This document shows, piece after piece, positions 8,380-33,468 of a DNA stretch of 64,000 bases (positions are counted from its first letter, which is position 1; every line of letters begins with the position of its first letter). The DNA comes from Oribacterium sp. WCC10 (GTDB lineage: Bacteria; Bacillota; Clostridia; Lachnospirales; Lachnospiraceae): NCBI RefSeq assembly GCF_900113415.1, contig NZ_FOPH01000017.1:1-64000 (forward strand), in the 5' to 3' direction. The notes beneath the pieces are model-generated. The model did not search any database and was not told where the DNA came from. It saw only the letters and a program-made list of their open reading frames with translations. A program made the translations under genes and the position numbers.

Positions 8380-8581
8380 CAAGACTTTGTTTCCCCTTTA
8401 TCGGGCATACCTTTAAGCACATATAGCATCTTACACACTTCGTCTCATCTATTGCTGGATACTCAAATCCCTCATCATCTTCTATCATTGAAATTGCCCC
8501 CTGTGGGCATATAGCAAAGCATGCCGTACAGCCACAGCATAATGCTTTGCTTTCATATAAAACCGGTAGTGCTTTCTGCAT
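8351..8581 (-). CDS. Small 2[4Fe-4S] ferredoxin
   Basis: About 76 residues with two clusters of cysteines, CGCTACFAICP and CVRCYMCLKVCP, the pattern of a bacterial 2[4Fe-4S] ferredoxin. A GGAGG site eight bases before the ATG at 8581 sets the start, and the site overlaps the stop of the FrhB-like gene upstream. In many related polysaccharide loci a ferredoxin domain of this type is fused to the N-terminus of the FrhB-like protein. Here both FrhB-like proteins lack it, so this protein probably supplies electrons to both. Confidence 0.85.
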   Translation of the reverse strand: MQKALPVLYESKALCCGCTACFAICPQGAISMIEDDEGFEYPAIDETKCVRCYMCLKVCPIKGKQSLDDRQMGSNY

Positions 8582-16859: not shown

Positions 16860-17267
16860 TTATTTGGCGATAGTTTCTAGGACGTCTCTGACACTCTCTA
16901 CCGTATCAAAGAATCCGCGGTATTCATCTGGGGTCCACTTCTCTCTTATTCTTTGCTGCACTCCAGCAAGCCCAACAACGCTTGGAACACTAAGTGCCAC
17001 TTACCTGCATCCGTGTTCACCCATCAGTACTGAGCTTTCACGCGAAATTGTCGGCCGCTGATTAATGATCGCATCGGCGAGCTGGCATACGCAGGTAGCT
17101 ATCCAATAATGTGTTCTACCCTTAGCTGCTATTATTTGTCCACCCATTGCTTTCGTCTTTTCAGCCAGTTTTTTCCTATCTTCTGCATCCCATTTTAGTC
17201 CTACATCATTGCAGTATTCTTCAATCGGAATTCCTCTTCCGACCACCCATACTTTCAGCTTATTCAC
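16860..17267 (-). pseudogene. Lactate/malate dehydrogenase remnant
   Basis: The frame from 17267 begins KVWVVG, jumps to RGIPIEEYC, continues through IIAAKGRTHYWIATCVCQL and ends VLMGEHGCR at a TAA at about 17001. Beyond that stop the same frame continues VALSVPSVVGLAGVQQRI and runs to a natural stop at 16860-16862. All of this matches the C-terminal half of an L-lactate/malate dehydrogenase. The NAD-binding half and the catalytic-loop segment after VVG are deleted, and one nonsense codon splits the tail. It is dead metabolic DNA trapped between two polysaccharide genes. Confidence 0.8.
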
Positions 17268-17284
17268 AACGATACCTCAATCTC

Positions 17285-18694
17285 TTATTTACCTGCAAGA
17301 ACTTCCAACTCAGCAAACTTCACCTTGCCGTAATCATTCCGTGGAATCTCGTCAATGACAAACACACGGAAGGCTGAGTTATGCAGATTGGTCTTTCCGC
17401 TGATAAACGGAATGATTTCATCCTTAAGCCCTGCGTCAGTTATAAAGATATTCATTTTCTTGTCATCGCCGGTGCAACAGAAATCGACATTCGGATACTG
17501 CGTTTTCAAAATACGCTCTGTCTCATCAAGACTTACCCTTAATCCGAACAGCTTAAGGAATCGACCTTTGCGCCCGATGATAAAATAGAATCCGTCGGCA
17601 TCCCTTTTGGCTATATCACCAGTGTGATATTCCCCGCAGAACTCATCGTCTTTCTGAAGATCATCTTTATTCAATGCATAACCCATCGTGACATTAGGTC
17701 CACGATAACCAAGCTCTCCCGTTACCGTACCGTCCTCACCTTCAGCCTCATCAAGTAGAAACAACTCACCGTTAGGAATCGCCTTGCCTATGCTCCCGAT
17801 CTTCTGAAGAGCGAGCTCTGGATCAAGGAAAGCCATGCGAGCACTGGTTTCACTAGTTCCAAATGTTGCGCAAAACCGCTTACCATTCTCTTTTGCATAG
17901 GTAGCGATCCACTTAAACATCTTATCGGTCAGTTTGCCGCCGCCCTCGGCCAGAGTATAAAGCTTCGGTAGATCCATCTTGTCAAAGCCCACTCTACGCA
18001 TAACCTCATAGCTAAATGGCACACCACAGAAGCTGGTTCCTCCATTAACCTTGATAAACTCCCAGAAATCGGGATCCATTAGATTGGCTTTCACCATGAG
18101 AACGGTTGCACCGACCACAAGGTGGCTATTGATAACGTTCAGCCCCATGGTATAGTTCATGGGCAGATCACAGATGCCAACCTCTTCATCTGGTCGCCAG
18201 GAGAAGACTTTAGCTACATTTTCCGCGTTTGCTTCCAAATTGCCGTACTTATGCCGCACCAGCTTGGGGCTGCCCGTTGAACCAGATGTAGTCAGAAGCA
18301 TAGAGAGTTTGTCGTTCAGCGGATAGGGCTCATACTCAGTCTTCAGAAGAACATAGCCGTATGCTGAGAACACTTTCTCACCTTTGATTTCCTCAGCCTT
18401 CCGTTCCGGCACCCAATAATAACTTGGTGTGTACATGGATTCAAGGTTGCTTCTCAATCCTTCATCCAATCCGGCACCGAGAAGAAGTGGAACCTGTTTG
18501 TTGTTTTCAAATGCCATATAGCCAATCAGTGAGCCAGCGCAATTCTCACAGAGGCAGAAAATAACAGAACGTGGGAGATTCAGAGCGTCAAACTCCTCTA
18601 TCGTCAGGCATACATCACCATAGGTGAGCTTGTAACCGCTATCATCTTTGATTGCCATTTTATTTTTATTATGCTTATCGACATTTAAAAACAC
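17285..18694 (-). CDS. AMP-dependent acyl ligase (ANL superfamily)
   Basis: A 469-residue adenylating enzyme. LTTSGSTGSPK is the P-loop (A3), ATFGTSETSAR is A5, EYHTGDIAKRD is A7, IGRKGRFLKLFG is A8 and the C-terminal RNDYGKVKF carries the catalytic Lys of A10. It activates a carboxylic acid as an acyl-AMP and passes it to a thiol. The two carrier proteins just upstream make an ACP the likely acceptor, rather than CoA. It is shorter than most fatty acyl-CoA ligases. The start is GTG at 18694, behind AAAGGAG. The acid used is unknown. Confidence 0.88.
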   Translation of the reverse strand: MFLNVDKHNKNKMAIKDDSGYKLTYGDVCLTIEEFDALNLPRSVIFCLCENCAGSLIGYMAFENNKQVPLLLGAGLDEGLRSNLESMYTPSYYWVPERKAEEIKGEKVFSAYGYVLLKTEYEPYPLNDKLSMLLTTSGSTGSPKLVRHKYGNLEANAENVAKVFSWRPDEEVGICDLPMNYTMGLNVINSHLVVGATVLMVKANLMDPDFWEFIKVNGGTSFCGVPFSYEVMRRVGFDKMDLPKLYTLAEGGGKLTDKMFKWIATYAKENGKRFCATFGTSETSARMAFLDPELALQKIGSIGKAIPNGELFLLDEAEGEDGTVTGELGYRGPNVTMGYALNKDDLQKDDEFCGEYHTGDIAKRDADGFYFIIGRKGRFLKLFGLRVSLDETERILKTQYPNVDFCCTGDDKKMNIFITDAGLKDEIIPFISGKTNLHNSAFRVFVIDEIPRNDYGKVKFAELEVLAGK

Positions 18695-18754
18695 TTTTCT
18701 AACTCCTTTGCGTGGGATACCACGATTTCTTCAAACTACACAATATTGCTTGGT

Positions 18755-19498
18755 CTACATAATAGTGCAGCCGTCCACAGCCAGCACCTGTCCGGAAACA
18801 TAGGTAGAAAGATCAGATACCATGAAGAGACAGGCTTTTGCGATATCTTCCGGCTCTGCCAGATGTCCCATACAGATGTTGTTGATCCTGCTTTGCAACT
18901 TCTCCGGATCAGCCTGCTTCATCATGTCAGTGTTGGTAAGGCCAGGCGCAATAGCATTTACACGGATCTTCTTCTCCGCCAGCTCTTTTGCGGCGGATTT
19001 AGTTAATGAAATCACCGCACCCTTGGTTGCCGAGTAAACCAACTGGCCCTTATTACCTCTCAATGCCGTCATGGACGTAATATTCACAATACTCCCGCCG
19101 GTCTCCTGGCGTCCCATTATTCGGCTCACCATCTGGAGCATGTTAATAGTACCGTAGACATTCACAGAGAACATTTTCTCCATGTTATCGTGACTGATCA
19201 TACCAATGAGTTCATTGAACTCTACACCGGCATTGTTGACCAATCCATCAATGTAACCGCAGGCTCTCTTAATCTGCATTACGCCGTCCCTGGCAGCACG
19301 TTCATCGGAAATGTCAAAGTACAGGGACCGAACCTCCCCGCTCACATCCTTATTGAACTCCTCAGACCACTCCTCCACAGAGCCTTCACGAGTTGCTATC
19401 GCATAAACGGTAGCTCCATTCTGAGCAAAAACCTGTGAAATGGCCTTTCCAATCCCCCGGCTTCCGCCGGTAACGATACAGACTTTTCCTGTCAGCAT
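18755..19498 (-). CDS. SDR ketoreductase, FabG-like
   Basis: A 247-residue classical short-chain dehydrogenase. VTGGSRGIG binds NADPH, LVNNAGVEF is the NNAG motif, ITSMTALRG with YSATKGAV gives the Ser-Tyr-Lys catalytic set, and APGLTNTDM follows. It is of normal FabG length. Immediately downstream of the two ACP genes, it most likely reduces a 3-oxoacyl-ACP to the 3-hydroxyacyl-ACP. No dehydratase (FabZ) or enoyl reductase is present anywhere in the locus, so the hydroxyl group would be retained. Confidence 0.88.
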   Translation of the reverse strand: MLTGKVCIVTGGSRGIGKAISQVFAQNGATVYAIATREGSVEEWSEEFNKDVSGEVRSLYFDISDERAARDGVMQIKRACGYIDGLVNNAGVEFNELIGMISHDNMEKMFSVNVYGTINMLQMVSRIMGRQETGGSIVNITSMTALRGNKGQLVYSATKGAVISLTKSAAKELAEKKIRVNAIAPGLTNTDMMKQADPEKLQSRINNICMGHLAEPEDIAKACLFMVSDLSTYVSGQVLAVDGCTIM

Positions 19499-19511
19499 AT
19501 TGTTTCCCCTA

Positions 19512-19751
19512 TTAGAATTCTACTCCGTACCTTTTAAGAATCTCGATCCCGTTCAAGTAGGAGCCGTAGTGAAGAATATCATCCGATTCGAACAGGACAT
19601 CAAATTCATCCTCAAGTTCCGAGATCAGCGAAAGATGAGCAACCGAATCCCACTGAGGAACAGCTTTGAAAGTGAAGTTTTCATTCAGCACGGACTCGTT
19701 TACATTCAATACTCTGCAAAAAACATCATTGTATTTTTTCAAATTATCCAT
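19512..19751 (-). CDS. Acyl carrier protein 2 (DSV motif)
   Basis: 79 residues with the ACP four-helix pattern. Ser36 lies in WDSVAHLSLISELEDEFD, the variant of DSL where phosphopantetheine is attached. It is one of a tandem pair with the ACP at 19762. The sequence is clearly different from a housekeeping AcpP and closer to the stand-alone carriers of polyketide or surface-glycan loci. The gene is separated from its partner by ten bases and from the ketoreductase by 13, so all three are co-translated. Confidence 0.87.
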   Translation of the reverse strand: MDNLKKYNDVFCRVLNVNESVLNENFTFKAVPQWDSVAHLSLISELEDEFDVLFESDDILHYGSYLNGIEILKRYGVEF

Positions 19752-19761
19752 GCGATAATCC

Positions 19762-19983
19762 TCACTTTTCCATCAGAGACATGATATCTGCAACCGTCTC
19801 AAAGGCTTTAACCTCAGCACCAGTTACCTTCTTATCGAACTCATCATCAAACATCACGATAAGAGAAAGCTTTGCCATAGAGGTATATTCATCCAGATCT
19901 GCCAGTACGGTTTCCGGAGTCAGCGTGCCTTCATCCATTTCGAGAGTTTCTTCGATAAGTGCCAGTTTTTCCTGATTATTCAT
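19762..19983 (-). CDS. Acyl carrier protein 1 (atypical TSM motif)
   Basis: 73 residues preceded by an excellent AGGAGG site. Alignment by eye of EYTSMAKLSLIVMFDDEFD with the ACP consensus places Ser35 at the phosphopantetheine site. The normal Asp before the Ser is Thr and the normal Leu after it is Met. Helix II keeps the acidic recognition face (DDEFD). It could be a distinct carrier for the starter, with the second ACP carrying the extender. Modification of Ser35 is an inference. Confidence 0.83.
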   Translation of the reverse strand: MNNQEKLALIEETLEMDEGTLTPETVLADLDEYTSMAKLSLIVMFDDEFDKKVTGAEVKAFETVADIMSLMEK

Positions 19984-20023
19984 TGTATTTTCCTCCTAAA
20001 ATCTTTTACTATTGGTTAGTTTC

Positions 20024-21112
20024 TCAATACTGTCCGGGGATAAGTTTCCCCTCTTTGTAGTAATCCTCAGTTTGCACAATCGGATAAATCTTATCTGTAT
20101 CAACTTCAATATTTGCAACGCCCCAGCTCAGGCCGATACCGAAGCCGCAAATAAGTGCCTTCAGTTTCTCCCCGCTCTTGTCTCCGTACGCATCACAGAG
20201 TGTTAACGGGATCGAGATACCACCAGTATTCCCGTATCTGTCCAAGGACAGCGGAACTTGATCATTGGGGAGCTTCATTTTCCGGATCAACTGTTTGATA
20301 ATAAACTGGTTTGCCTGGTGGAAAAGGAACGCGTTGTAGTCGGCCACGGTCGTTTCTGTTAGCCTCAGATAATCCGTGATCGCCTGCGGTACATCCGAGA
20401 TGGAGAACGAGAACACTGATGTGCCATCCATGAAGATGTCGTACAGCGACCGTTCAATACCATCACTGCACATAAACCGTTCATGTCCGGGGTTCATATC
20501 GCGGAATCCACCCGCTGGCAGGACAATCGCTTTATAGCGGCTTCCATCGCTGCGAAGAAGAGATGTTGTCTCCACTCCGTCCTTCCGCTCCAGAAGAATC
20601 GCAGCGCCGGCGTCCCCGTACATCATCACGATGGACTTATCCAGAGGATCAACAAGCTTTGTTGCTGTCTCGCCCATAAGAAGCAGTCCATACTTGTAAT
20701 CGGAGGCAGACATCATAGCCATTGCAGTTTGAAGTCCATAGACAAAGCCAGAGCATCCCAGGTTGATTTCCATACAGGAACAATCAATAGGAAGTCCCAA
20801 CCTGAGCTGAACGATGCTTGCGCTGGACGGTCTCCGATAATCAGGGGACTGCGTGACGAGGAACATTGCTCCGATTTCAGACTTATCTATATCAATGTGG
20901 CTAAACAGCTCCTGTGCCGCGTCAACAGCCAGATCGCTTGCGGTCTGCTCCGGAAGCGCCTTAAATGTTGCTTTAATCCCTGTGCCGGAGGTAAATTTGC
21001 TTGTTACTTCTTCACCAAATACAGATGTAAAGCTCTCTACCGGTACATTGTTTTTCGGAACAGCGCATGCGACCCCTGCGATACCAATTCCGCTGCTTTT
21101 GAATACTGACAT
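20024..21112 (-). CDS. Beta-ketoacyl-ACP synthase III (KAS III/FabH family)
   Basis: A 362-residue thiolase-fold condensing enzyme. The catalytic triad is complete: Cys120 in EINLGCSGFVYGL, His265 in FLFHQANQF and Asn295 in RYGNTGGISIPL. It is about 35-40 residues longer than housekeeping FabH, mostly as a C-terminal tail after FGIGLSWGVANIE. KAS III enzymes join a short acyl starter to malonyl-ACP in the first condensation. This is the only KAS in the locus, so a single elongation is likely. The start has an AAGGAG site. Whether the starter arrives on CoA or on an ACP is unknown. Confidence 0.9.
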   Translation of the reverse strand: MSVFKSSGIGIAGVACAVPKNNVPVESFTSVFGEEVTSKFTSGTGIKATFKALPEQTASDLAVDAAQELFSHIDIDKSEIGAMFLVTQSPDYRRPSSASIVQLRLGLPIDCSCMEINLGCSGFVYGLQTAMAMMSASDYKYGLLLMGETATKLVDPLDKSIVMMYGDAGAAILLERKDGVETTSLLRSDGSRYKAIVLPAGGFRDMNPGHERFMCSDGIERSLYDIFMDGTSVFSFSISDVPQAITDYLRLTETTVADYNAFLFHQANQFIIKQLIRKMKLPNDQVPLSLDRYGNTGGISIPLTLCDAYGDKSGEKLKALICGFGIGLSWGVANIEVDTDKIYPIVQTEDYYKEGKLIPGQY

Positions 21113-21124
21113 GTTTTTTCTCCT

Positions 21125-21745
21125 TCACCGTTTTAATACGAAACCATGAAAATGCCCCGGATAGACCTTTGTTCCATCTGGAATAGCATCTATTATCTTC
21201 TTTCCCTTTTCTTCCCATTGCTTCTTGCTTCCGCCGGGAAACCGTACCTCTATCTCTTTCCCCTCCAGCAGGCTGTCACCAGAGAAGAATATATCGTCGA
21301 TCCAAATTCCTATGCTACCGGGTGAATGACCTGGAATCTCGACCAACTTTATTCTGTGTCCCTGCCAATCAATACGCTTCTCACATTCAAAAGTGATATC
21401 CGCCTCACAGGTAAATCCCAAATCAAAGAGGGACGGATCCCACTGTGCAGAAAAGGATTGTATCTCACAAAACGAATCAAAGTGTCTTGCCTGATTCTTC
21501 TTTGAATCCTTTATCCTCTCACTGCAAACCTTGCTGCATAATAACGGAGCGCCTGTTTGTTCTTTCCACGCATTAACCCCAAATATGTGGTCGTAATGCT
21601 CGTGAGTAATGAAGAGGTAGTCGATGATGAACTTATCCGCTGCATCTGTAATTAAGCAAGGATCAATTACGATTGCGTGACCGTTCTCTGATACGACATA
21701 CATACTGGAGTTCAGTAGTCCGGAGTCAACTCTCTCAACTATCAT
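21125..21745 (-). CDS. Metallo-beta-lactamase-fold hydrolase
   Basis: 206 residues with FITHEHYDHIFG (HxHxDH), PGHSPGSIGIW, FFSGDSLLEG and VYPGHFHG, which form the two-metal site of glyoxalase II-like hydrolases. Its start overlaps the stop of the malonyl transferase gene by four bases (ATGA), so translation of the two is coupled. In this context a thioesterase acting on acyl-ACP or acyl-CoA, for release or editing, is the natural guess, but the fold alone does not prove it. Confidence 0.83.
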   Translation of the reverse strand: MIVERVDSGLLNSSMYVVSENGHAIVIDPCLITDAADKFIIDYLFITHEHYDHIFGVNAWKEQTGAPLLCSKVCSERIKDSKKNQARHFDSFCEIQSFSAQWDPSLFDLGFTCEADITFECEKRIDWQGHRIKLVEIPGHSPGSIGIWIDDIFFSGDSLLEGKEIEVRFPGGSKKQWEEKGKKIIDAIPDGTKVYPGHFHGFVLKR

Positions 21746-22668
21746 TTGTTCACTGCTTCCAGTGTAGAATTCAGTGTTTTCAGGTTTTCCACCCTATATA
21801 TATTCACACCTGTGAGCGTCTTCTTCACCAAGCCAGACAGTGTTCTTCCCGGGCCGCACTCAATGAAGGTGTCTATACCTGCTTCCCTCATATTCTGCAG
21901 TGTTTTTACCCATTGCACAGGAGACATGGCCTGTTGGACAAGCAAATCTTTCACCTTGCTTCCATCCTCAATGGCCTCCCCATCCACATTCATGTAGACA
22001 GGGATTGCAGGATATGAGAATGATTTGCTTTTAAACAATTCTGCCAGTTTCTCCGCCGCTGGTCTCATCAACTTACAATGGAACGGAGCACTCACTGGCA
22101 GCTTCATGCAGGTTATTCCGCGCTCTTCAGCGATACTTACAGCCTCATCAACGGCTGCCGCTTCACCAGAGATAACAGTCTGCGCTGGACTATTATAGTT
22201 TGCAGGAATCACATATCCCGACTTCACCATTTCACAAATCTCAGCAGCTTGATTTGATTCCTTTCCAATCAAAGCTGCCATCGCGCCTTGCCTTGCCGGA
22301 ACAGCCTCCTGCATCGCGTCCGCGCGAACCTGTACTATAAGAAAGACATCATCCTGTTTGATTGCCCCTGCAAATGTCAGCGCCGCATATTCACCCAAGG
22401 AAAAGCCTGCTACAGCTTCCGCCACGACTCCTTTTGATCTTAATAATTCGCCAGCCGCAAGATCGGCGGCAAGGACACATGGTTGCGTATTATGCGTTAA
22501 GTTCAGATCTTCCTGCGTCCCGTGGAAACACAGATCCGAGATCGAACGTCCCAGAGCTTTATCTGCCTTATCGAACACATCTCTTACAACTTGCTCTTCC
22601 TGATATAAATCCTGTAACATTCCGGGGTATTGCGCCCCTTGTCCTGAAAAAAGGAATGCTATCCTCAT
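21742..22668 (-). CDS. Malonyl-CoA:ACP transacylase (FabD-like)
   Basis: 308 residues, normal FabD length. FLFSGQGAQYPGM is the N-terminal motif, Ser90 in AGFSLGEYAAL is the nucleophile (the usual GHSLG has Phe for His), Arg115 in VQVRADAMQ is the residue that binds the extender carboxylate, and His197 in SAPFHCKLM completes the dyad. The retained Arg argues for malonyl or methylmalonyl rather than a simple acyl group. It would load one of the two local ACPs for the KAS III next door. Confidence 0.9.
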   Translation of the reverse strand: MRIAFLFSGQGAQYPGMLQDLYQEEQVVRDVFDKADKALGRSISDLCFHGTQEDLNLTHNTQPCVLAADLAAGELLRSKGVVAEAVAGFSLGEYAALTFAGAIKQDDVFLIVQVRADAMQEAVPARQGAMAALIGKESNQAAEICEMVKSGYVIPANYNSPAQTVISGEAAAVDEAVSIAEERGITCMKLPVSAPFHCKLMRPAAEKLAELFKSKSFSYPAIPVYMNVDGEAIEDGSKVKDLLVQQAMSPVQWVKTLQNMREAGIDTFIECGPGRTLSGLVKKTLTGVNIYRVENLKTLNSTLEAVNK

Positions 22669-22672
22669 CTTC

Positions 22673-23320
22673 TTACTCCAACTCTTTCATCCTTTTTGCC
22701 GGGTTTCCAAGCACGGTTGTGCCTGCCTTCACATTAGAAAACACAACGCTTCCTGCAGCGATAGTAGCTCCGTCTCCAACCTTCTTTTCCGGTATGATGA
22801 ATGCATGTCCACCAATGTTGACCTCTGAGCCGATCTTGCATCCACCACTGATTCCGGTTCCGACCATGATCGTTGTATAGTCGCCTATCTCTACGTCATG
22901 TCCTACGGATACTCTGCCATTCAGAAGGACTCCATCCCCGATCTTGCAGTTGACGGAAATGCTCGTGTATCCATAGATCACGCTGCCGGCTCCAATCGTA
23001 CATAAAGATGAAATACGGGCATCCGGAGCAATAATAGTCTCAAACTGTACACCCTGTTCCGTAAGCCGCCGCTGTATCTTTGCTTTGGTCCTTGGATACC
23101 CGATCGTGCATGTGCACACACACTCGTCCTTATGCTCAATAATCCATTCACCGGTTCCCAGCCACGGATATCCGTTAATGATTACACCTTCATGATACTG
23201 GGAGCCGTCATCAAGAAAGCCAAGGAGCTTATAGGTAGGCGCCACTTCGTTAATTCGTTCAATAATATAAGCTACTTCTTTGCCAAAGCCGCTGGCTCCA
23301 TACAAAACGATATCTTTCAT
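22673..23320 (-). CDS. PglD/NeuD-like sugar N-acyltransferase
   Basis: 215 residues. An N-terminal Rossmann-type domain (IVLYGASGFGKEVAYIIERI, then LGFLDDG) is followed by a left-handed beta-helix of hexapeptide repeats (IGAGSVIYGYTSI, IGDGVLLNGRVSVGHDVEIG). GHDVEIGDYT holds the catalytic His of PglD-type enzymes. The family acylates the 4-amino group of UDP-4-amino-sugars, normally from acetyl-CoA. The gene overlaps the next one by four bases. It is one of four beta-helix acyltransferases in the locus. Confidence 0.85.
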   Translation of the reverse strand: MKDIVLYGASGFGKEVAYIIERINEVAPTYKLLGFLDDGSQYHEGVIINGYPWLGTGEWIIEHKDECVCTCTIGYPRTKAKIQRRLTEQGVQFETIIAPDARISSLCTIGAGSVIYGYTSISVNCKIGDGVLLNGRVSVGHDVEIGDYTTIMVGTGISGGCKIGSEVNIGGHAFIIPEKKVGDGATIAAGSVVFSNVKAGTTVLGNPAKRMKELE

Positions 23321-24015
23321 CCATCAATCCCCCTATACTCACGGATAAGGGAGAATGCTTCTGCCGCTTTAAAGCCAGAGGTTGAACCTCTCAGCTTCGC
23401 TAGTGCTTCCACGGCTTCAATAGATCTGGGATTAGGGAATTCACCAACCTGCGAAGTAAAACAGGCCATAGCTTCAAGTTTCTTCGGCAGATAGTCGGTA
23501 ATATCAATAAAAGTATTCGGAATGAACGAGTTAGTCACATGGGGAATGTTCCACTCCGTTTCTGAAAGGCACTCATAGGAATATACAAACCGAGGCACAT
23601 GCGCATATTTCGGCCTTACTGCGACCATAACTGCCTCTGAAACAATTGTATGATCTTTTTGCATATCTCCGAAGTGGGGAATAAAAACCACATCTGGCTT
23701 GACCCGCTGAATAACATCACTGATCTTTCCGTTAACAATATGTCGTGGTTCATTCTCTAAAAGGACACATGGGAACTGAAGGAAAACCGTCTCCTTAATC
23801 TTCAAAAGTTCATGTGCGGCTTTAATCTGAGGATATATGATGTGTGGCCAACCGTTCTTCTCCGCCAAGTTGTCCTTATAAACATAAACCGGCGGCTGAG
23901 GGCTTGTAACGATACATACCGTTACCTCCGCTCCTTGATCAATATACCGTGCCATCGTACCGCCGCAGCCAAGCACTTCATCGTCCGGATGCGGGGCAAA
24001 TACCAGAATCTTCAT
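23317..24015 (-). CDS. PIG-L family N-deacetylase
   Basis: About 232 residues starting at the ATG at 24015, which follows GGAGAGAAGCAG. The longer open frame from 24063 overlaps the SDR gene and has no ribosome site. VFAPHPDDEVLGCGGTMAR is the zinc-binding PHPDDE motif, and IPHFGDMQKDHTIVSEAV supplies the second metal ligand region. PIG-L enzymes deacetylate N-acetylglucosaminyl substrates. Here it could expose an amine on the sugar for acylation by the LpxD-like or PglD-like enzymes. Confidence 0.85.
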   Translation of the reverse strand: MKILVFAPHPDDEVLGCGGTMARYIDQGAEVTVCIVTSPQPPVYVYKDNLAEKNGWPHIIYPQIKAAHELLKIKETVFLQFPCVLLENEPRHIVNGKISDVIQRVKPDVVFIPHFGDMQKDHTIVSEAVMVAVRPKYAHVPRFVYSYECLSETEWNIPHVTNSFIPNTFIDITDYLPKKLEAMACFTSQVGEFPNPRSIEAVEALAKLRGSTSGFKAAEAFSLIREYRGIDG

Positions 24016-24040
24016 CTGCTTCTCTCCAAAGGTTATATAT

Positions 24041-24802
24041 TTACGAAGACAGCATTCCTCCATCTACTCCTACATTGGCTCCCGTAATCATACGGGAAGC
24101 ATCCGACAGAAGAAATGCTATCGTGTTTGCCACATCAATAGGTTTACCAAGCCCCAAGTACTGACGCTCTATCTTCGCCTGTGCATCGTGGCTATCGCCA
24201 GCATTATCCTGGAATGTCTGGAAAAGAGCTGTTTCAATAATACCGGGGCAAACCGTGTTTACACGGATTCCATTCGGAGCCAGCTCCTTGGCCATGCATC
24301 TGACAGCCGAGTCCATTGCTGCTTTAGAAGAACAATACGCTGTCTTGCCCAGACTTCCCATTGTAGAAGAAATAGATGAGATTCCCACGATGCTCATTCC
24401 AGCGTTGAACATGTTCTTCTTTGTGGCGCACCTGACAAGCTCAACAAAGGCGCTGAAGTTGATGTTCATTACTTCGCTCAGAGCAGCAGGCTTCATCATC
24501 TTCAGCGGGCGAGTTCCGGGAATGCCCGCAGAATATACTATCCCGTCCAGAGCCCCGGTTTCCTTAATTGTGCCTTTCACAAAGGCCTCTATATTATCAA
24601 GCTCATTGAGATCAAACGGGTAATATCTGTGTCCTTCTCCTTGGAGCTTTTGCATTACCTCAAGCAGCTTATCTTCTCTTCTTGCTACCAGCACAACCTT
24701 CGCGCCAAGTTCGCTGCAGAGCGCAGCAGTCTCAGCTCCCATGCCTGAGGAAGCCCCGGCGATCAGTATTGTTTTATCTGATAAGTCAATTATGTTTTTC
24801 AT
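24041..24802 (-). CDS. Second SDR-family oxidoreductase
   Basis: 253 residues. ILIAGASSGMGAETAAL is the cofactor loop, VYSAGIPG replaces the usual NNAG, SSISSTMGSLGKTAY followed by CSSKAAMD gives the Ser-Tyr-Lys set, and CPGIIETALF follows. It differs clearly from the FabG-like gene at 18755, so it is not a recent duplicate. It may reduce a keto-sugar or a second acyl intermediate. The sequence does not decide between these. Confidence 0.8.
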   Translation of the reverse strand: MKNIIDLSDKTILIAGASSGMGAETAALCSELGAKVVLVARREDKLLEVMQKLQGEGHRYYPFDLNELDNIEAFVKGTIKETGALDGIVYSAGIPGTRPLKMMKPAALSEVMNINFSAFVELVRCATKKNMFNAGMSIVGISSISSTMGSLGKTAYCSSKAAMDSAVRCMAKELAPNGIRVNTVCPGIIETALFQTFQDNAGDSHDAQAKIERQYLGLGKPIDVANTIAFLLSDASRMITGANVGVDGGMLSS

Positions 24803-24823
24803 TCAAATACACCTTGGCATTAA

Positions 24824-25753
24824 TCACTTAACTAACGGTTTAGCTGGATTTCCAACAACCGTTAGTCCTTCATCAACATCTTTAACTACAACTGCACCTA
24901 ATCCAACCGTTGCGTTTGCCCCGACATTCCTTTGATTTCTAATGGTAGCTCCGGCGATATGACAATTCTCTCCGATTTTTACACTTCCACAGACATGGCA
25001 GGGTGATGTAATAAGGGTATTTGCGCCAATCTCATCATTATGGGCTATATGAACCATAGTATTGATTTTCACGCCCTTATGAATAATGGTGTCATCAATT
25101 GCGCCACGGATAATCACACAATTATCACCGATGTGAACATCATCTTCGATAACAACTCCACCGTAGTGTCTGAGCATTGTTTTCTCGTTCTGTTCATTTT
25201 TTACATAGCCAAACCCGTACTCCCCAATCACGGTTCCCGAGTGAATCGTACAATTGGCCCCTATTCTGGTCTTGTTCCGAATAACAACATTATGATGGAT
25301 TTCAGTATTATCGCCGATTACAACATTTCCTTCAATTACGCAGCCTACACCGATTCTGACATTTTTGCCAATCGTAGCGGTCGGAGCAATATAGGAATTT
25401 TTCTTATACACCTCTGGATCTGCGGAAATACCGGTAATGTCTGCTCCTGGTGCTTTCTCAAACAATCCATCTAAAAGTGCAAAGAACACTCTTCTCGGAC
25501 TTTTGACTCGTATGACAGAGGAAAAAACAGGCGAATCTTCTTCTGTCTCTCCGATAATCATAAAGGGAATTTTGATCGTGCTAAATTGTTCTGCATAATC
25601 TGCAAAATGTCTTTCAGGAACAATAAAGGTCATTGTCCTTTCTCTATAATTGAACAGGCTGGAATAACCATCAATCTCAACATCCGAGATTCTTACTGCT
25701 TCATATTCGATTCCTTCCTGGTCAAGAAAGCTAAGTATTTCTGAACTCTTCAT
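24824..25753 (-). CDS. LpxD-like N-acyltransferase (UDP-amino-sugar acylation)
   Basis: 309 residues with the LpxD architecture. An N-terminal domain of about 110 residues is followed by hexapeptide beta-helix repeats. An LpxD-style segment, IGEYGFGYVKNEQNEK, leads through IEDDVHIGDNCVIIRGAIDD to VHIAHNDEIG, where His238 corresponds to the catalytic His of LpxD. LpxD uses a 3-hydroxyacyl-ACP to N-acylate a UDP-sugar amine in lipid A synthesis, a pathway that Gram-positives lack. Here a dedicated ACP, KAS III and ketoreductase lie in the same operon, which would supply exactly such a donor. No LpxA, LpxC or LpxB partner is present. Confidence 0.82.
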   Translation of the reverse strand: MKSSEILSFLDQEGIEYEAVRISDVEIDGYSSLFNYRERTMTFIVPERHFADYAEQFSTIKIPFMIIGETEEDSPVFSSVIRVKSPRRVFFALLDGLFEKAPGADITGISADPEVYKKNSYIAPTATIGKNVRIGVGCVIEGNVVIGDNTEIHHNVVIRNKTRIGANCTIHSGTVIGEYGFGYVKNEQNEKTMLRHYGGVVIEDDVHIGDNCVIIRGAIDDTIIHKGVKINTMVHIAHNDEIGANTLITSPCHVCGSVKIGENCHIAGATIRNQRNVGANATVGLGAVVVKDVDEGLTVVGNPAKPLVK

Positions 25754-25757
25754 TTTG

Positions 25758-26390
25758 TCATTCTCCCTTCAACTTTTTTCCCGTCACAGCCACATCAAGA
25801 CGTCCCCGGGTAGAATCATTTGCGTCCGGAGCTCCTTCCCGCAGTAGCACGACTTTAATGGTTTGGAAGAATATTTTCAGATCCAGTAAAAAGGATATGT
25901 TTTCCGCATACCAGACATCCAGTTTCAACCTTTCTTCCCAGTCAAGCTTATTCCTGCCCTTGATTGCAGAAATGTTCGCCATTCCTGGACGGACATTATG
26001 CCTTTTATGTTGTTCAGGCGTATATACCTGCAGGTATTCCTTCAGAAGAGGACGAGGCCCAATAAAAGCCATGTCTCCCTTGAAGATATTAATCAAGCTT
26101 GGCAGCTCGTCCAGGCTTGTCCTCCTCAAAATGCGTCCGAACTTCGTCTGTCTTTCCTCATCAGGGAGAAGCTCACCAGATTCATCACGGGCATCAGTCA
26201 TAGAGCGAAATTTATAAAGTTTGAAAATCTTCTCTTTATAGCCCGGTCTCTCCTGAGAGAAAATCACAGGGGAACCTAACTTGGCTCGAATCAGAATCGC
26301 CGTTATTAGCATTATTGGTGATGCAACTACAAGGCCAATAGATGAAAGGCACAGGCTGAAAAGTCTTTTTATGTACTTCGAGTAAATCAC
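25758..26390 (-). CDS. Priming phosphoglycosyl transferase (bacterial sugar transferase, PglC/WcaJ type)
   Basis: About 210 residues. One hydrophobic segment (residues 8-35) precedes the catalytic domain with GSPVIFSQERPGYKEKIFKL, LRRTSLDELPSLINIFKGDM, IGPRPLLKEY, RPGMANISAIKGRN and the final DLKIFFQTIKVVL. It transfers a sugar phosphate to undecaprenyl phosphate to start the repeat unit. I place the start at the GTG at 26390, which has an AAAGGA site. The same GTG overlaps the stop of the upstream acetyltransferase in its restored frame. Its monotopic, PglC-like size fits a bacillosamine-type priming sugar. Confidence 0.9.
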   Translation of the reverse strand: MIYSKYIKRLFSLCLSSIGLVVASPIMLITAILIRAKLGSPVIFSQERPGYKEKIFKLYKFRSMTDARDESGELLPDEERQTKFGRILRRTSLDELPSLINIFKGDMAFIGPRPLLKEYLQVYTPEQHKRHNVRPGMANISAIKGRNKLDWEERLKLDVWYAENISFLLDLKIFFQTIKVVLLREGAPDANDSTRGRLDVAVTGKKLKGE

Positions 26391-26526
26391 TTTATATTCC
26401 TTTCCTCTGTGAACCGATTCCACAGGTAATCAGCAAGTTCATTTGATATGGATTGCTTTTTCGGAGCCAGTTCTGCAGGATAATTTTCTCTTTTTCCAAG
26501 CTTCTCCAGATATACATCAAGCGGCT

Positions 26527-26961
26527 CTATAACCTTCGCCGGTACCCCCCCACCACGGAATTTGAGGGCACATCTTTTGTAATCACACTTCCTGCTGCAA
26601 CGATCACGTTTGACCCTATTCGCACGTTACTGAGAATTGTTGTTCCTGCTCCTATAAAGACATTATCTCCTACTTCAATGCATCCGACCTGTTCTTGTAC
26701 TTTATCGGCCATCGACAAATTCTCTGCCGAATTCAACATCGAATGAATAATGCTGTGTGTAACAAAGTTAACGCGAGACGCAATCTTGACATTGTCTCCT
26801 AATGAAATCAGTTCTGAATACAGGGGAAGCTTTCTCCCTTGAAGATATACTTTTTCTCCTATATGACAGAAAAGGTTATGCTTTCTCAGATAGTTCGCAC
26901 GTTTATATCCGTTTCGCTGCACATTCAGCATGATTGTGTGCCACAATCGTTTTGGAGTCAT
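26527..26961 (-). CDS. Hexapeptide acetyltransferase, currently frameshifted OFF at a G7 tract
   Basis: The frame as given encodes 144 residues of a WbbJ/maltose-acetyltransferase-like beta-helix enzyme (VNFVTHSIIH holds the catalytic His, then VGDNVFIGAGTTILSNVRIG and AAGSVITKDVPSNS). It then ends abruptly with VVGGYRRRL. The break lies at seven G (26545-26551). With eight G the frame reads VVGGVPAKVIEPLDVYLEKL, the canonical family ending, and stays open to a TGA at 26387, giving about 191 residues. That TGA overlaps the GTG start of the sugar transferase (GTGA), which shows that the long form is the ancestral arrangement. The gene is probably phase-variable and OFF in this clone. A single-base sequencing error in the tract is the alternative. 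Confidence 0.85.
   Translation of the reverse strand: MTPKRLWHTIMLNVQRNGYKRANYLRKHNLFCHIGEKVYLQGRKLPLYSELISLGDNVKIASRVNFVTHSIIHSMLNSAENLSMADKVQEQVGCIEVGDNVFIGAGTTILSNVRIGSNVIVAAGSVITKDVPSNSVVGGYRRRL
26545..26551 (-). repeat. Homopolymeric G7 tract, phase-variation switch of the acetyltransferase
   Basis: Seven C on the plus strand. Seven G gives a truncated acetyltransferase, eight G gives the full enzyme ending with a four-base overlap into the next gene, and six G gives a short alternative tail. The tract lies within codons for V-V-G-G just before the family's GVPAKVI motif. Confidence 0.8.
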
Positions 26962-26972
26962 GTCTTTCTACC

Positions 26973-27617
26973 TCATTTAAACAGCGAAAAACCGCTGCTT
27001 TTTTCATTAACTTCAGCTCCATCGGCGTAGTCACGGCTGGCTGTAGCTTCTACACCAACTTCAACTCTGCTGCCTAATCTCTTGTGTGGATAGACACACG
27101 ATCCCGCCGCCAGAAAGCACTCGTCACCTACTTCTGCGCGTTCAGAAACAGAAGCTCCGGACATGATGGAAACGAAAGAACCGATCTTGCAGTCGTTGCA
27201 TATCGTGCTGTGGATATAATAAAGATTGAAGTCTCCCAGTTTTGTATCCACGGACACTGTAACCTGTGGGAAGACGATGCTTCCATTCCCCACTGGACTT
27301 GTCGAGGCAATTACTGCTGTCGGATGGATGATTGATTCCCAAGAATTAAACGACTGATGTTCTTCAACTATCTTTTTCCTGACGCTCCCGTTCTGGATTG
27401 CGATTACAGCACTACACTGTCTTTGGCTGCTGATTGCTTCGAGATCCGAAACACTTCCCAAGACCTTATACCCATAAAACTCTCCACCGAGCTTATCCTT
27501 ATCGTCATCTAAGAATCCGAGGATTACGAAGGTTGGTTCTCTTTTGTTTATATCCTCAATAAGCCAGACAACTTCCTTACCGAGGTCGCCGGCACCGATA
27601 ATCACTATGTTTTTCAT
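26973..27617 (-). CDS. Second PglD/NeuD-like sugar acyltransferase
   Basis: About 214 residues. IVIIGAGDLGKEVVWLIEDI starts the Rossmann-like domain, LGFLDDDKDKLGG follows, and a hexapeptide beta-helix runs from residue 100 (VGNGSIVFPQVTVSVDTKLG). The usual GHD catalytic segment of PglD is replaced by YYIHSTICNDCKIG, which still has a His (H133). It is related to but clearly diverged from the copy at 22673. The ATG at 27617 follows GGAGGTCGGTGAGC. It may act on a second amino position or use another acyl donor. Confidence 0.82.
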   Translation of the reverse strand: MKNIVIIGAGDLGKEVVWLIEDINKREPTFVILGFLDDDKDKLGGEFYGYKVLGSVSDLEAISSQRQCSAVIAIQNGSVRKKIVEEHQSFNSWESIIHPTAVIASTSPVGNGSIVFPQVTVSVDTKLGDFNLYYIHSTICNDCKIGSFVSIMSGASVSERAEVGDECFLAAGSCVYPHKRLGSRVEVGVEATASRDYADGAEVNEKSSGFSLFK

Positions 27618-27633
27618 GCTCACCGACCTCCTG

Positions 27634-29202
27634 TTACAGCGGGATGTTACCGTGTGAATAACTAAGCTCAGACCGTTCCTTTGAACTCAGGCTCTCAAAT
27701 GCCGTTCTGATTTTTCGCCTTGTTTCCTCCGGGCTTATCACTTCATCGATAATACCGAGCTTCGCAGCTATGTAGGGTGACATGAACTTGTCATTATACT
27801 CAGCTATCTTCTCAGCTCTTACAGCCTCTTTATCAGCTGCTTCCTCAAGCTCATGCTTGTACATGATGCCAACTGCGCCTTCAGCTCCCATAACAGCAAT
27901 TTGCGCAATGGGCCAGGCGTAAACGATATCCGCTCCCATTCCCTTGCTGTTCATAGCGATATAAGCTCCGCCATATGCTTTCCGCAGAATAAGGCTAACC
28001 TTCGGCACACTTGCCTCGCAATAAGCATAGAGAAGCTTTGCTCCGCGTCTAATAATTCCGCCATGCTCCATTTTGCTTCCCGGCATGAAACCGGGAACAT
28101 CGATCATGGTTAAAAGCGGAATTCCAAAGCAGTCACAGCAACGGACAAATCGTGCGGCCTTTTCGCCAGAATCGATGTCCAGAGATCCACCGAGCCACAT
28201 AGGATTCGATGCGACAATTCCAATCACCTCGGAATCCAGTCTGGCGTATCCTACCACAATACTCTTTCCGAAATCCTGATGGATCTCAAAGAAGGTTCCT
28301 TCATCCACAAAAGTGTCAATCACCTTATGAACATCATAAGCACGTCGCTGATTGTCCGTGACAATCTCCTGAAGTTCTTCGGAATGATCACGTGCTTTTC
28401 CTATGATTCTGACTGGCTTCTCTCTGTAGTTCTTTGGTAGATAGGAAAGCAGCTTCTTTACCCCATCCAAGCATTCATATTCCGAAGAATACTTGAAATG
28501 AGCAACACCGGATAATGAACTGTGGCTATCAGCTCCTCCGAGCTGCTCTGTACTGATATCTTCACCCATAACAGTTTTCACCACTGCAGGCCCCGTTAAA
28601 AACATCTGGCTGGTCTTCTCAACCATGAAGACATAATCGCAAAGAGCCGGTCCATAGCAAGCACCGCCAGCGCATGGTCCCATAATCACAGCAATTTGAG
28701 GTATCTTTCCAGACGCCCGAGTATGTCTCAAGAACATATCACCATAGCCATCAAGGCCTGCGATGCCCTCCTCCATCCTCGCCCCGCCGGAATCATTGAT
28801 GGTTATGAAAGGAGCTTTTGATTGGAAAGCCATATCCATGATACGGACGATTTTCTTGCTGTGGTATTCGCCATAGGTACCGCCAATAACCGTAAAGTCT
28901 TCGGCAGCTACATAAACAGCTTTCCCATTAATAGTTCCGAATCCTGTAACAACACCATCTCCGGAGAGCTTTTTTTTATCCATTCCAAAATCAGTAAAGC
29001 GAGATTCGACAAGAGAACCCACTTCATGAAACGAGCCCGGATCAAATAGATAATTGATTCGTTCCCACACGGTCAGTTTTCCTTTTCCGTGTTGAACATC
29101 AATACGTTTTTGTCCTCCGCCATCTTTAGCTTTAGCACGTCTGGTATTCAAATCTTCAATATATTTGGGATTCCACATACCGTCCACAGCTTCCTTCTTC
29201 AC
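27634..29202 (-). CDS. Acyl-CoA carboxylase carboxyltransferase subunit (PccB/MmdA type)
   Basis: 522 residues of the biotin-dependent carboxyltransferase family. The N-terminal half carries INDSGGARMEEGIAGLDGYG and IMGPCAGGACYGPALCDYVF, and the C-terminal half carries MIDVPGFMPGSKMEHGGIIR, LRKAYGGAYIAMNSKGMGAD and a final YIAAKLGIIDEVI. It moves a carboxyl group between biotin and an acyl-CoA, typically propionyl- or acetyl-CoA. No biotin carboxylase or biotin carrier gene lies in the window, so it must borrow them. In this operon it probably supplies malonyl- or methylmalonyl-CoA to the FabD-like enzyme. The start could be the GTG at 29202 or the ATG at 29178. Confidence 0.88.
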   Translation of the reverse strand: MKKEAVDGMWNPKYIEDLNTRRAKAKDGGGQKRIDVQHGKGKLTVWERINYLFDPGSFHEVGSLVESRFTDFGMDKKKLSGDGVVTGFGTINGKAVYVAAEDFTVIGGTYGEYHSKKIVRIMDMAFQSKAPFITINDSGGARMEEGIAGLDGYGDMFLRHTRASGKIPQIAVIMGPCAGGACYGPALCDYVFMVEKTSQMFLTGPAVVKTVMGEDISTEQLGGADSHSSLSGVAHFKYSSEYECLDGVKKLLSYLPKNYREKPVRIIGKARDHSEELQEIVTDNQRRAYDVHKVIDTFVDEGTFFEIHQDFGKSIVVGYARLDSEVIGIVASNPMWLGGSLDIDSGEKAARFVRCCDCFGIPLLTMIDVPGFMPGSKMEHGGIIRRGAKLLYAYCEASVPKVSLILRKAYGGAYIAMNSKGMGADIVYAWPIAQIAVMGAEGAVGIMYKHELEEAADKEAVRAEKIAEYNDKFMSPYIAAKLGIIDEVISPEETRRKIRTAFESLSSKERSELSYSHGNIPL

Positions 29203-30304: not shown

Positions 30305-31897
30305 TCACACAACCCCCTCATACAGCAGCTTATCCCCAACATATACCGGATGAACTCCCGTTTCCTTATTCTTATTGAAGTTGAAGCTCAGCATATATCC
30401 GGTTGTGAGTCCAAAGTAGTCCAGATACTCGCTGATCTGTTTCTCGCCTTCGGCATTGTAACGATCGCCACGCCAGATTTTCAGTTCTATGATATATTGC
30501 TGTCCCAGGTAATCTACTATAATATCTGTTCTGGTCTGATCTCTGGTTTGCGCTTCGATATAATAGTTACCTGTACCGTTGATAATCGGCTTTATATAGA
30601 GCAGGAACTGTTCTCTTCCGTCTTTCTCCTTGAATCTTTCCTCCAGTGGACCAAATACCTCTGTATATGTAGCGATGAACCTCTCCATGATCAGCCGCAT
30701 GTTAAGCTTTCCATCAGCGATAAACTGATTCTTTGCAAGATCTCCCGCTTTTGAAAATACATTGTTTTTCAGCTCTTCCTCAGACAGAAACAGGTTGTAC
30801 AGCATAGTTTCAAATATTCTGTTTGCCACACGCACTGTATTATGATCATTCCTGATCAATCCATACATCTGCATCTCAACGATTTCATCCTGCTGGGCAT
30901 TGTACGTGATTTTCGTTCCTTCCATCAGGATACTTCGTATAGATTCTTTTAGCTTAGGAAGATTATTCAGATTCTTAGTAAGTGACTGAAACAGCGTATT
31001 ATTCTCCTGCAGAATCAGTTTCACGGCTTCGTCCAGTCCGTTTTTTGTCCATGCCTCCGAAAGACTTATCTTTTTTGAAACCTGCTCATCTATCAACTGA
31101 CAGATTCGACTCACCAGAAATGGATAACCGTTTGTATATTCCCGAATTTCTTTTGCAATATCTGCTGTATCCATTCCTGTCTGGTGATCCGCTTCATATT
31201 CATCAAGCATACCTTTGATACCTGTTTCGGATAGGCTCATATCTATGTCAAAGTCTGCCGCTATATTCCAGGGACTGTTTTTTTTGCGTTGATCCTCATC
31301 ACGAATCTTGCTCCTAAGATGTTTTACATCATTTACTCCTGCAAGAATTACGGATTGGAAAGTTTTTACTTTTGGATTCTTTTCCCTTTTGAGATACAGA
31401 GAACGAAGCTGAGCAAGAAAATCAAGGAAAACCTGATTATTTGTGGCAGTATCAACCTCATCAATGATAAGTACTATTGGCTCTGTTGATTCCAAAAACC
31501 AATTACGAAAAACGCGAAATAAATCATCCATTTTTACTTCTGTAGTTTCTCTATCATTCAAAGCCTGTAGTTTTTCTTTTATATCCTCCGGCACCGTCAG
31601 ACCTTCAAAATCTGATGCATCCAGCAAAATTCTTGCAAAAGCTTTTGAAAATTCTCCACCATTTATAAAACTGCCATCTTCAATATCCTGAAAATCCAGA
31701 CTGATAACAATATATTGATCCTTGAGAACACGATAAAGCGCATCTATTGTCGTGGTTTTACCATACTGTCTCGCTCTGTTAATGGTAAAATACTTCCCTG
31801 AATCAACCAGCTTTTTTATTTCTTTTACTCTTTCGGAGAGATCAACCATATAATGTTTTTCCGGTATACATACAGCTGTTGTATTGAATTCTTTCAA
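30305..31897 (-). CDS. AAA-like ATPase with C-terminal PD-(D/E)XK domain
   Basis: 530 residues of the AAA-ATPase-like family common in Lachnospiraceae and Bacteroidales. NRARQYGKTTTIDAL is the degenerate Walker A, IVLIIDEVDTATNN is Walker B, and the C-terminal DIIVDYLGQQYIIELKIWRG is the nuclease-like D-x(n)-E-x-K core. The role is unknown. It lies inside the polysaccharide operon but looks like an insertion: there are about 135 non-coding A/T-rich bases upstream, and the product has no link to glycan chemistry. The start is TTG behind AAAGGAGAG. A distant relative is at 44143-45813. Confidence 0.85.
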   Translation of the reverse strand: MKEFNTTAVCIPEKHYMVDLSERVKEIKKLVDSGKYFTINRARQYGKTTTIDALYRVLKDQYIVISLDFQDIEDGSFINGGEFSKAFARILLDASDFEGLTVPEDIKEKLQALNDRETTEVKMDDLFRVFRNWFLESTEPIVLIIDEVDTATNNQVFLDFLAQLRSLYLKREKNPKVKTFQSVILAGVNDVKHLRSKIRDEDQRKKNSPWNIAADFDIDMSLSETGIKGMLDEYEADHQTGMDTADIAKEIREYTNGYPFLVSRICQLIDEQVSKKISLSEAWTKNGLDEAVKLILQENNTLFQSLTKNLNNLPKLKESIRSILMEGTKITYNAQQDEIVEMQMYGLIRNDHNTVRVANRIFETMLYNLFLSEEELKNNVFSKAGDLAKNQFIADGKLNMRLIMERFIATYTEVFGPLEERFKEKDGREQFLLYIKPIINGTGNYYIEAQTRDQTRTDIIVDYLGQQYIIELKIWRGDRYNAEGEKQISEYLDYFGLTTGYMLSFNFNKNKETGVHPVYVGDKLLYEGVV

Positions 31898-33334: not shown

Positions 33335-33468
33335 GGATTTCACCACTTCCCCTACATAGATTTCTGTTCGTATTGTGTATGTCTTATAATCGACACCGCT
33401 ATGATACATTACGTGGGTGACATTTTTACCTGCCACCCACGTAAATTACACATTCATAATACTTTTCC

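Follow-up and report, generated by a model that had tools for sequence, protein, structure and literature searches.

Why should a Gram-positive bacterium carry, within a surface-polysaccharide operon, a set of genes for making acyl groups on acyl carrier proteins (ACPs), together with a relative of the lipid A acyltransferase LpxD? The question is raised by positions 17285-29202 of a 64-kb stretch of DNA from Oribacterium sp. WCC10 (contig NZ_FOPH01000017.1; the whole stretch is called the window here, all coordinates refer to it, and the genome has 3.64 Mb and is 97% complete). Gene content, intact active-site residues, conservation and linkage are observed directly. The acyl-ACP cassette is real, constrained and mobile; its products have to be inferred. 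It is a Gram-positive version of a set known in Gram-negatives, to which a small subgroup adds a side branch of a PIG-L deacetylase and an LpxD-like protein. We regard it as very likely that the cassette serves N-acylation of an amino sugar, presumably a diamino sugar of the surface polysaccharide. The fuller proposal, in which in addition a PglD/VioB-type protein, NeuD2, transfers the cassette product, seems to us slightly more probable than its opposite.

The acyl genes all lie on the minus strand and are closely packed: several overlap, and none is separated from the next by more than about 100 bases. Together with the related genes on either side, and with their profile matches, they are the following.

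7846-8382, minus strand: Sfp-type 4'-phosphopantetheinyl transferase, presumed ACP activator (PF01648, 38.1 bits)
17285-18694, minus strand: AMP-forming acyl ligase, presumed loader of ACP1 (PF00501, 115.5 bits)
18755-19498, minus strand: SDR1, a FabG-like reductase of the short-chain dehydrogenase/reductase (SDR) type (PF13561, 199 bits)
19512-19751, minus strand: ACP1, with a WDSV motif (PF00550, 17.9 bits, under the cut-off of 20.8)
19762-19983, minus strand: ACP2, with a YTSM motif (PF00550, 21.1 bits, just over the cut-off of 20.8)
20024-21112, minus strand: 3-ketoacyl-ACP synthase III (KAS III), clade A, first-position ketosynthase (PF08541/PF08545)
21125-21745, minus strand: hydrolase of the metallo-beta-lactamase (MBL) fold, presumed editing thioesterase (PF00753, 60.5 bits)
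21742-22668, minus strand: FabD, malonyl-CoA:ACP transacylase (TIGR00128, 280.7 bits, over the cut-off of 260.9)
22673-23320, minus strand: NeuD2, PglD/VioB-type sugar N-acyltransferase (TIGR03570, 181.3 bits, over the cut-off of 160.8)
23317-24063, minus strand: PIG-L family deacetylase (PF02585, 78.9 bits)
24041-24802, minus strand: SDR2, proposed 3-ketoacyl reductase (PF13561, 182.5 bits)
24824-25753, minus strand: LpxD-like left-handed beta-helix N-acyltransferase (PRK00892, 211.5 bits; TIGR01853, 205.5 bits)
25758-26423, minus strand: phosphoglycosyl transferase, a bacterial sugar transferase (PF02397, 201 bits)
26527-26961, minus strand: hexapeptide acyltransferase (PF00132, 46.3 bits)
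26973-27623, minus strand: NeuD1, a second NeuD/PglD-like protein (TIGR03570, 138.9 bits, under the cut-off of 160.8)
27634-29202, minus strand: MmdA/PccB-type carboxyltransferase, presumed supplier of malonyl-CoA (PF01039, 599.8 bits)
32033-33436, minus strand: DegT/LegC-type aminotransferase (PF01041, 253.7 bits; TIGR04181, 289.1 bits, under the cut-off of 420)
33469-35430, minus strand: PglF-type nucleotide-sugar 4,6-dehydratase (PF02719, 409.3 bits)

Every gene that the initial annotation had named is present in the window, the families being identified by profile matches with FabD above its family cut-off; the Sfp-type transferase and the VHIAHND motif of the LpxD-like protein are there as well. 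NeuD2, NeuD1, the hexapeptide transferase and the phosphoglycosyl transferase, which lie in the same run, had gone unmentioned.

Are these genes intact, and are they a set of their own? Cys120, His265 and Asn295 of KAS III, described as intact from the beginning, are invariant in four sequences, and all 49 KAS III rows retain the triad. Among the rows from the loci searched, in which one genome was entered twice, all 26 of ACP1 and all 39 of ACP2 have the serine that presumably bears phosphopantetheine. The sole other KAS III match in the genome is only 33% identical and lies on another contig (C32) near FabD- and FabG-like genes; thus the capsule genes are a second set, and the cassette is not the genome's only KAS III/FabD/FabG set, as one for housekeeping type II fatty acid synthesis would be. 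The earlier view of a dedicated acyl-ACP set, apart from the FabH/FabD/FabG-like operon on the other contig and linked to the PglF/DegT amino-sugar genes, is borne out. To look at constraint, the ratio of nonsynonymous to synonymous substitution rates (dN/dS) was estimated for nine genes against a relative in which they are 80-93% identical. It is 0.04-0.13 for five of them (KAS III, the LpxD-like gene, NeuD2, PIG-L and ACP2), and the ratios are rough because dS is high even there (0.7-2.1); for SDR2, ACP1, SDR1 and the AMP ligase dS is saturated. That SDR2 of the window might be an unrelated reductase was considered and is not supported: it nests in the family of KAS-linked SDR2 proteins, with 85% support in the Shimodaira-Hasegawa-like approximate likelihood-ratio test (SH-aLRT) only.

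How widely is the cassette distributed? A scan of 299 genomes of the family gave LpxD-like matches (E<=1e-20) in 10 and KAS III matches (E<=1e-45) in seven, the window genome being included in both and two of the seven resembling housekeeping loci, and a scan of 392 genomes of the order gave KAS III (E<=1e-55) in nine. When a genome collection was scanned with a four-sequence KAS III alignment, 22 loci were obtained, with KAS III 61-94% identical (these and other loci are denoted by L and a number below). All cassette genomes but one are of Bacillota (21 of 22), the exception being L071, a contig end labelled Coriobacteriaceae; hosts are [C.] aminophilum, [C.] symbiosum, Clostridium transplantifaecale and uncultured Clostridia or other Bacillota, and many come from ruminants. 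L071 and L062, whose flanks hold only KAS III and ACP2, were retained in the counts, and since the flanks are mostly 10 kb, counts by locus are lower bounds. The usual gene order is DegT, phosphoglycosyl transferase, NeuD2, FabD, MBL, KAS III, SDR2, ACP2, ACP1, carboxyltransferase, SDR1 and AMP ligase, sometimes with extra copies of KAS III and SDR2 between SDR2 and ACP2, and in three loci (L100, L102, L106) an Sfp relative directly follows the AMP ligase. MBL is seen at 18 of the 22 loci, and FabD and the carboxyltransferase at 15 each. The AMP ligase is found in 20 of 22 genomes (E<=1e-60), and SDR1 accompanies it in all 20, two of these pairs being on another contig. Loci at first seemed to fall into those with a single KAS III and the AMP ligase and those with two or three KAS III and no ligase, but this division was produced by the 10-kb flanks and was dropped, the ligase being in 20 of 22 genomes. 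Two figures from this survey matter for what follows: 17 of the 22 loci have a NeuD-type gene (27-98% identical) in the neighbourhood of the cassette, while an LpxD-like match (E<=1e-20) occurs in only three of the 22 genomes, one of them only 42% identical and over the C-terminal part alone.

The gene set is kept as a block in relatives; a lack of such conservation would have spoken against the initial annotation. The block is 80-99.7% identical in [Clostridium] aminophilum KH1P1 (L045/L050), where the LpxD-like protein reaches 99.7%, and 80-93% identical in a sheep-rumen genome of another family (L046/L051), in which FabD, MBL and the carboxyltransferase are absent from the part seen. The FabD of housekeeping type shares only 56% and 45% identity with its counterparts in these two genomes, respectively, and although a single protein makes a modest control, the difference points to horizontal transfer of the cassette.

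Have such sets been seen before? The initial annotation had supposed that none was described, and this was wrong, as two are published, both from Gram-negatives. In the viosamine island of Pseudomonas syringae, vioS/acp/vioR/vioB are reported for 3-hydroxybutyryl-viosamine (PMC3927599); KAS III, ACP, ketoreductase, the acyltransferase VioB, an aminotransferase and an N-(3-hydroxybutyryl) amino sugar product are common features, while the product belongs to a flagellin glycan and is made on a dTDP sugar, and the seven-gene table in the accessible part of that paper lists neither an AMP ligase nor a second ACP, FabD, carboxyltransferase, PIG-L or LpxD-like gene. The O-antigen genes wfpC-wfpG of Flavobacterium psychrophilum are connected with a 3,5-dihydroxyhexanoyl group on Qui2NAc4N, known from nuclear magnetic resonance, the transfer from ACP to N-4 being the prediction of those authors (PMC6519341). 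There, two 3-ketoacyl-ACP synthases, an ACP, a ketoreductase, a PglD homologue and genes for UDP-Qui2NAc4N resemble the window; the organism is Gram-negative with one ACP, and the available text mentions no FabD, carboxyltransferase, AMP ligase, MBL, PIG-L or LpxD-like gene. Group II flagellin islands of Aeromonas, so far as the accessible text goes, likewise place an ACP, a 3-oxoacyl-ACP reductase and an AMP-dependent synthetase in a glycan island, differing in their luxC/luxE genes and in that KAS III is not named (PMC7874193). The window thus has what characterizes a glycan acyl-ACP cassette: ACP, KAS III, ketoreductase and a PglD/VioB-type transferase beside amino-sugar genes. For Gram-positive capsule loci, no such cassette was recognised in open-access titles and abstract openings among the matches listed, the queries being partly aimed elsewhere.

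A further parallel is found in Parabacteroides distasonis TSDC17.2-1.1, of Bacteroidota, one of whose loci (L123) corresponds one-to-one with the core of the window: NeuD2 (31% identical), ACP2 (38%), SDR2 (38%), SDR1 (47%), AMP ligase (48%), ACP1 (42%) and KAS III (32%), with a dehydratase, DegT and a sugar transferase as well. A second Parabacteroides locus (L122) is similar, with no SDR1 match and with a second, partial KAS III match. Within the 16 kb examined, neither has a match to LpxD, FabD, carboxyltransferase, MBL or PIG-L; the lpxD gene for the lipid A of this strain sits in another record. That 'plasmid' record (L127) carries lpxD and prfA, so the 'plasmids' L122, L123 and L127 may be chromosomal contigs.

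How would such a cassette work? From the gene families, we infer the following substrates, products and order of steps. PglF and the DegT enzyme would convert UDP-GlcNAc to a UDP-2-acetamido-4-amino-trideoxy sugar. The carboxyltransferase, with biotin parts presumably coming from elsewhere, and FabD would load malonyl on ACP2, the ACPs being activated by the Sfp enzyme. KAS III would perform one condensation and SDR2 would reduce its product to a 3-hydroxyacyl group, before or after transfer to the sugar, and the MBL hydrolase would remove stalled chains. An acetyl-CoA primer would give 3-hydroxybutyryl, and a longer group would result if the AMP ligase loads an acid primer on ACP1. NeuD2 would then move the acyl group onto the 4-amine. 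In the window, PIG-L would also strip the 2-N-acetyl group, and the LpxD-like enzyme would install another acyl group there, so that the two would be a functional parallel of LpxC and LpxD without lipid A.

Which protein, then, transfers the product of the cassette? The structure model of NeuD2 is of good quality (mean pLDDT, the per-residue confidence score, 93.5) and has the fold of 4-amino-sugar N-acetyltransferases; its top fits in the PDB are PglB-AT, VioB, PerB, PglD and WeeI, which we take to acylate 4-amino sugars. As an LpxD-like match occurs in three cassette genomes of 22 and a NeuD-type gene at 17 loci of 22, NeuD2, not LpxD, is probably the usual transferase, and the initial proposal that the LpxD-like protein has this role becomes less likely. 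If the cassette does make an acyl group for an amino sugar, we would put NeuD2 ahead with reasonable, not strong, confidence. The relatedness of NeuD2 and DegT proteins also bears on the question. At the eight loci with NeuD2 at least 63% identical, the identity of DegT is 65-75%, and at the five with NeuD2 of 50-56% identity it is 23-26%, two groups which fit NeuD2 acting on the product of DegT; at four further loci with NeuD-type genes of 27-36% identity, DegT is 69, 29, 28 and 73% identical.

What is the LpxD-like protein for? It reaches the subfamily cut-off of PRK00892 (211.5 bits against 207) and falls below the equivalog cut-off of TIGR01853 (205.5 bits against 242.5; genome-wide best, 208.3), weak matches to the latter being of little weight, as all 14 control genomes match and four do so above the cut-off. 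In the tree, it is split from NeuD proteins together with LpxD and LpxA at support 100/100, though with long branches, which rules out a PglD-type enzyme, the outcome that would have contradicted the initial annotation; it falls within nine clostridial LpxD-like proteins (94/88), the clostridial set as a whole not being one supported clade. His238 of the window protein corresponds to His239 of Escherichia coli LpxD, presumably catalytic, and this histidine is found in 13 of 13 clostridial LpxD-like proteins and all three reference LpxDs. His276, which we take to be a second active-site residue, is in none of the 13 and in all three references. The C-terminal tail beyond E. coli residue 312, presumably the ACP-docking helices, has no residue in the window protein, 0-18 in the 13 proteins and 25-35 in the three LpxDs. 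A structure model of mean pLDDT 49.4 was too poor for comparing the acyl pocket or the ACP face. As for lipid A itself, LpxC (PF03331) has no match in the 97% complete genome, whereas four of 14 control genomes match, and a 2010 survey, in its accessible part, found lipid A enzymes absent from its seven Gram-positive genomes. Compared with the LpxC/LpxD steps, N-deacetylation followed by N-acylation by a left-handed beta-helix enzyme would be shared (in the proposed order), with PIG-L in place of LpxC and an LpxD-like protein without the defining features.

The PIG-L deacetylase tends to accompany LpxD-like genes: nine of 13 LpxD-like loci have it, against three of the 18 cassette loci that lack LpxD (Fisher p 0.0075; L071 excluded from the 18). 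When three near-identical loci are collapsed, the former figure becomes seven of 11 (p 0.017). The three loci with PIG-L and no LpxD carry a formyltransferase (L059), ATP-grasp, racemase and GNAT genes (L052) or ATP-grasp genes (L053), and relatives of these partner enzymes were found at no other cassette locus (tblastn, E<=1e-8) except for a 22% ATP-grasp match at L100. PIG-L and LpxD-like genes also co-occur with NeuB (L019) and with NeuB, Epimerase_2 and a cytidylyltransferase (L022), which from their genes are probably nonulosonate loci, and with an FkbH protein, a glyoxalase-fold protein, an ACP and NeuD (L015). Our reading of these combinations is that there may be a general device, in which the amine exposed by PIG-L receives a new acyl group from a partner enzyme. 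Whether the LpxD-like protein acts on an amine exposed by PIG-L is for us an even question.

Beside these loci, further relatives were noticed. In a Blautia genome (L068, 14583-18048), 3-hydroxyacyl-CoA dehydrogenase and thiolase genes directly precede the LpxD-like gene, so a CoA-based supply of hydroxyacyl groups is possible there. A Sphingomonas plasmid has an LpxD-like gene in an annotated acetamidino-sugar cluster (L126, 4731-5723), the fold being used here outside lipid A, and a haloarchaeal plasmid protein near glycosyltransferases (L125, 5989-6813) is 29% identical across the full LpxD-like length. Viral contigs, scanned with the LpxD-like protein alone, gave no match. Two glycan loci of the same family (L015, 8698-13282; L047, 5309-10801) hold FkbH, glyoxalase-fold and ACP genes, L047 adding MaoC and KAS III, and their gene sets suggest other acyl-ACP tags, perhaps glyceryl-derived.

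Several observations weigh against NeuD2 as carrier of the cassette product and against the division of labour between it and the PIG-L/LpxD-like pair. The relation between NeuD2 and DegT identities would also arise from overall relatedness of the cassettes, and its third group of four loci does not fit. No NeuD2 is seen at L054, L062, L063 (which carries a NeuD1-like gene) and L071 (a contig end), and the NeuD-type genes at L055, L057, L065 and L069 are only 27-36% identical. The structures of NeuD relatives contain acetyl-CoA or CoA, so that NeuD2 could be a plain acetyltransferase. In P. syringae, an N-acetoacetyl sugar intermediate is described in the accessible part of the report (PMC3927599), and reduction there seems to follow transfer. 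The cassette of the Blautia genome (L068 with L110) has LpxD and no NeuD-type match, so LpxD may serve as the transferase in that genome. ACP genes lie close by at the LpxD-like loci L015 and L019, so LpxD-like enzymes could well take ACP cargo. In the group of the window SDR2 adjoins LpxD instead of following KAS III, perhaps a sign that LpxD receives the hydroxyacyl group. As to PIG-L, the two sets in the Fisher test were each collected around a different gene, four of the nine LpxD-like loci that the family search gave show no PIG-L in the stretch examined, relatives of its partner enzymes were sought with single queries only, and L047 has a GNAT gene without PIG-L. The cargo of each transferase is beyond what genomes reveal.

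One rival is a form of the initial reading, in which the LpxD-like protein puts the 3-hydroxyacyl group of the cassette on the amine freed by PIG-L and NeuD2 merely acetylates the other amine. The adjacency of the LpxD-like, SDR2 and PIG-L genes in the window, L050 and L051 is in its favour, as are the grouping with LpxD/LpxA, the ACP genes near L015 and L019, and L068 with L110, where LpxD is the only NeuD/LpxD-type transferase found and stands beside the thiolase and 3-hydroxyacyl-CoA dehydrogenase. Yet 19 of the 22 cassette genomes have no LpxD-like match at E<=1e-20, NeuD-type genes go with the cassettes at most loci and also in Parabacteroides, and the protein lacks the tail and His276, and we consider this reading unlikely, at perhaps one chance among several. 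A quite different idea is that the cassette yields a free or lipid-linked small acyl product which has nothing to do with the glycan and is merely encoded in the capsule operon. KAS III, carboxyltransferase, FabD and MBL hydrolases are also found in small polyketide pathways, and the MBL protein weakly matches solanimycin SolJ (34.6 bits, where the cut-off is 350), but DegT, phosphoglycosyl transferase and NeuD-type genes are repeatedly linked to the cassette, polysaccharide loci of Parabacteroides included, which leaves such a product improbable. Still more improbable is that the genes are a degenerating copy of the housekeeping fatty acid pathway without a special function of its own: FabH, FabD and FabG relatives do exist elsewhere in the genome, but the triads are intact, dN/dS is low where measurable and the block is conserved across families.

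What sets the length of the cassette product? In a quick tree with SH-aLRT support only, KAS III proteins form clade A, the first gene, with 22 rows including the window (support 88), and clades B1 (seven rows, 100) and B2 (eight rows, 89), which join at 99. One copy is found at nine loci, two at ten and three at two (21 loci, L071 excluded; copies counted in available flanks, fragments under 240 residues omitted, L066 scored from its twin L033); [C.] symbiosum ATCC 14940 has a single KAS III and no match to the LpxD-like protein. The B copies are not inactive chain-length factors, as the triad is kept in seven of seven B1 and eight of eight B2 rows. In Clostridia, the cassettes might be discrete assembly lines in which clade A catalyzes the first condensation and B1 and B2 later ones, one KAS giving 3-hydroxybutyryl, two 3,5-dihydroxyhexanoyl and three 3,5,7-trihydroxyoctanoyl. 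One condensation per KAS agrees with the published pairs, one in P. syringae and two in F. psychrophilum, though two cases are few, and the latter has, in the accessible text, one ketoreductase for its two KAS. For the window, with its one KAS III, 3-hydroxybutyryl is the simplest guess, though a different primer may come by way of the AMP ligase and ACP1. That KAS copy number sets the length of a polyhydroxyacyl group and, jointly, that PIG-L and the LpxD-like protein acylate a second amine too in the subgroup of the window is a doubtful combination, which we offer only tentatively.

The surroundings of the cassette are those of a capsule operon. The Sfp-type transferase shares its region with a Wzz-type protein and a ParA-like ATPase, and we read two further genes as putative Wzx (11687-13204) and putative Wzy (14419-15591). 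Between DegT and glycosyltransferase genes lies an AAA-ATPase/PD-(D/E)XK-like protein without NCBIfam match (30305-31897). Directly after the AMP ligase, an 88-aa frame (17001-17267) has a sub-threshold match to the C-terminal part of lactate/malate dehydrogenase (22.0 against 22.6 bits); L051 has a 12-residue, 92% match to it behind ACP1, which could be the scar of a recombination.

What would it mean for these bacteria? A class of N-(hydroxyacyl) amino sugars is predicted on the surface of Clostridia, including the cultured [Clostridium] aminophilum and [C.] symbiosum, and the genes for it can be named. If KAS III copy number sets the length of the tag, glycan chemistry would be readable from gene counts. 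The pair of PIG-L and LpxD-like protein would be a second route to deacetylate-then-reacylate chemistry of the lipid A type, and, if the joint reading is true, a Gram-positive capsule sugar would be acylated on both nitrogens, chemistry like that of a lipid A precursor having evolved without lipid A.

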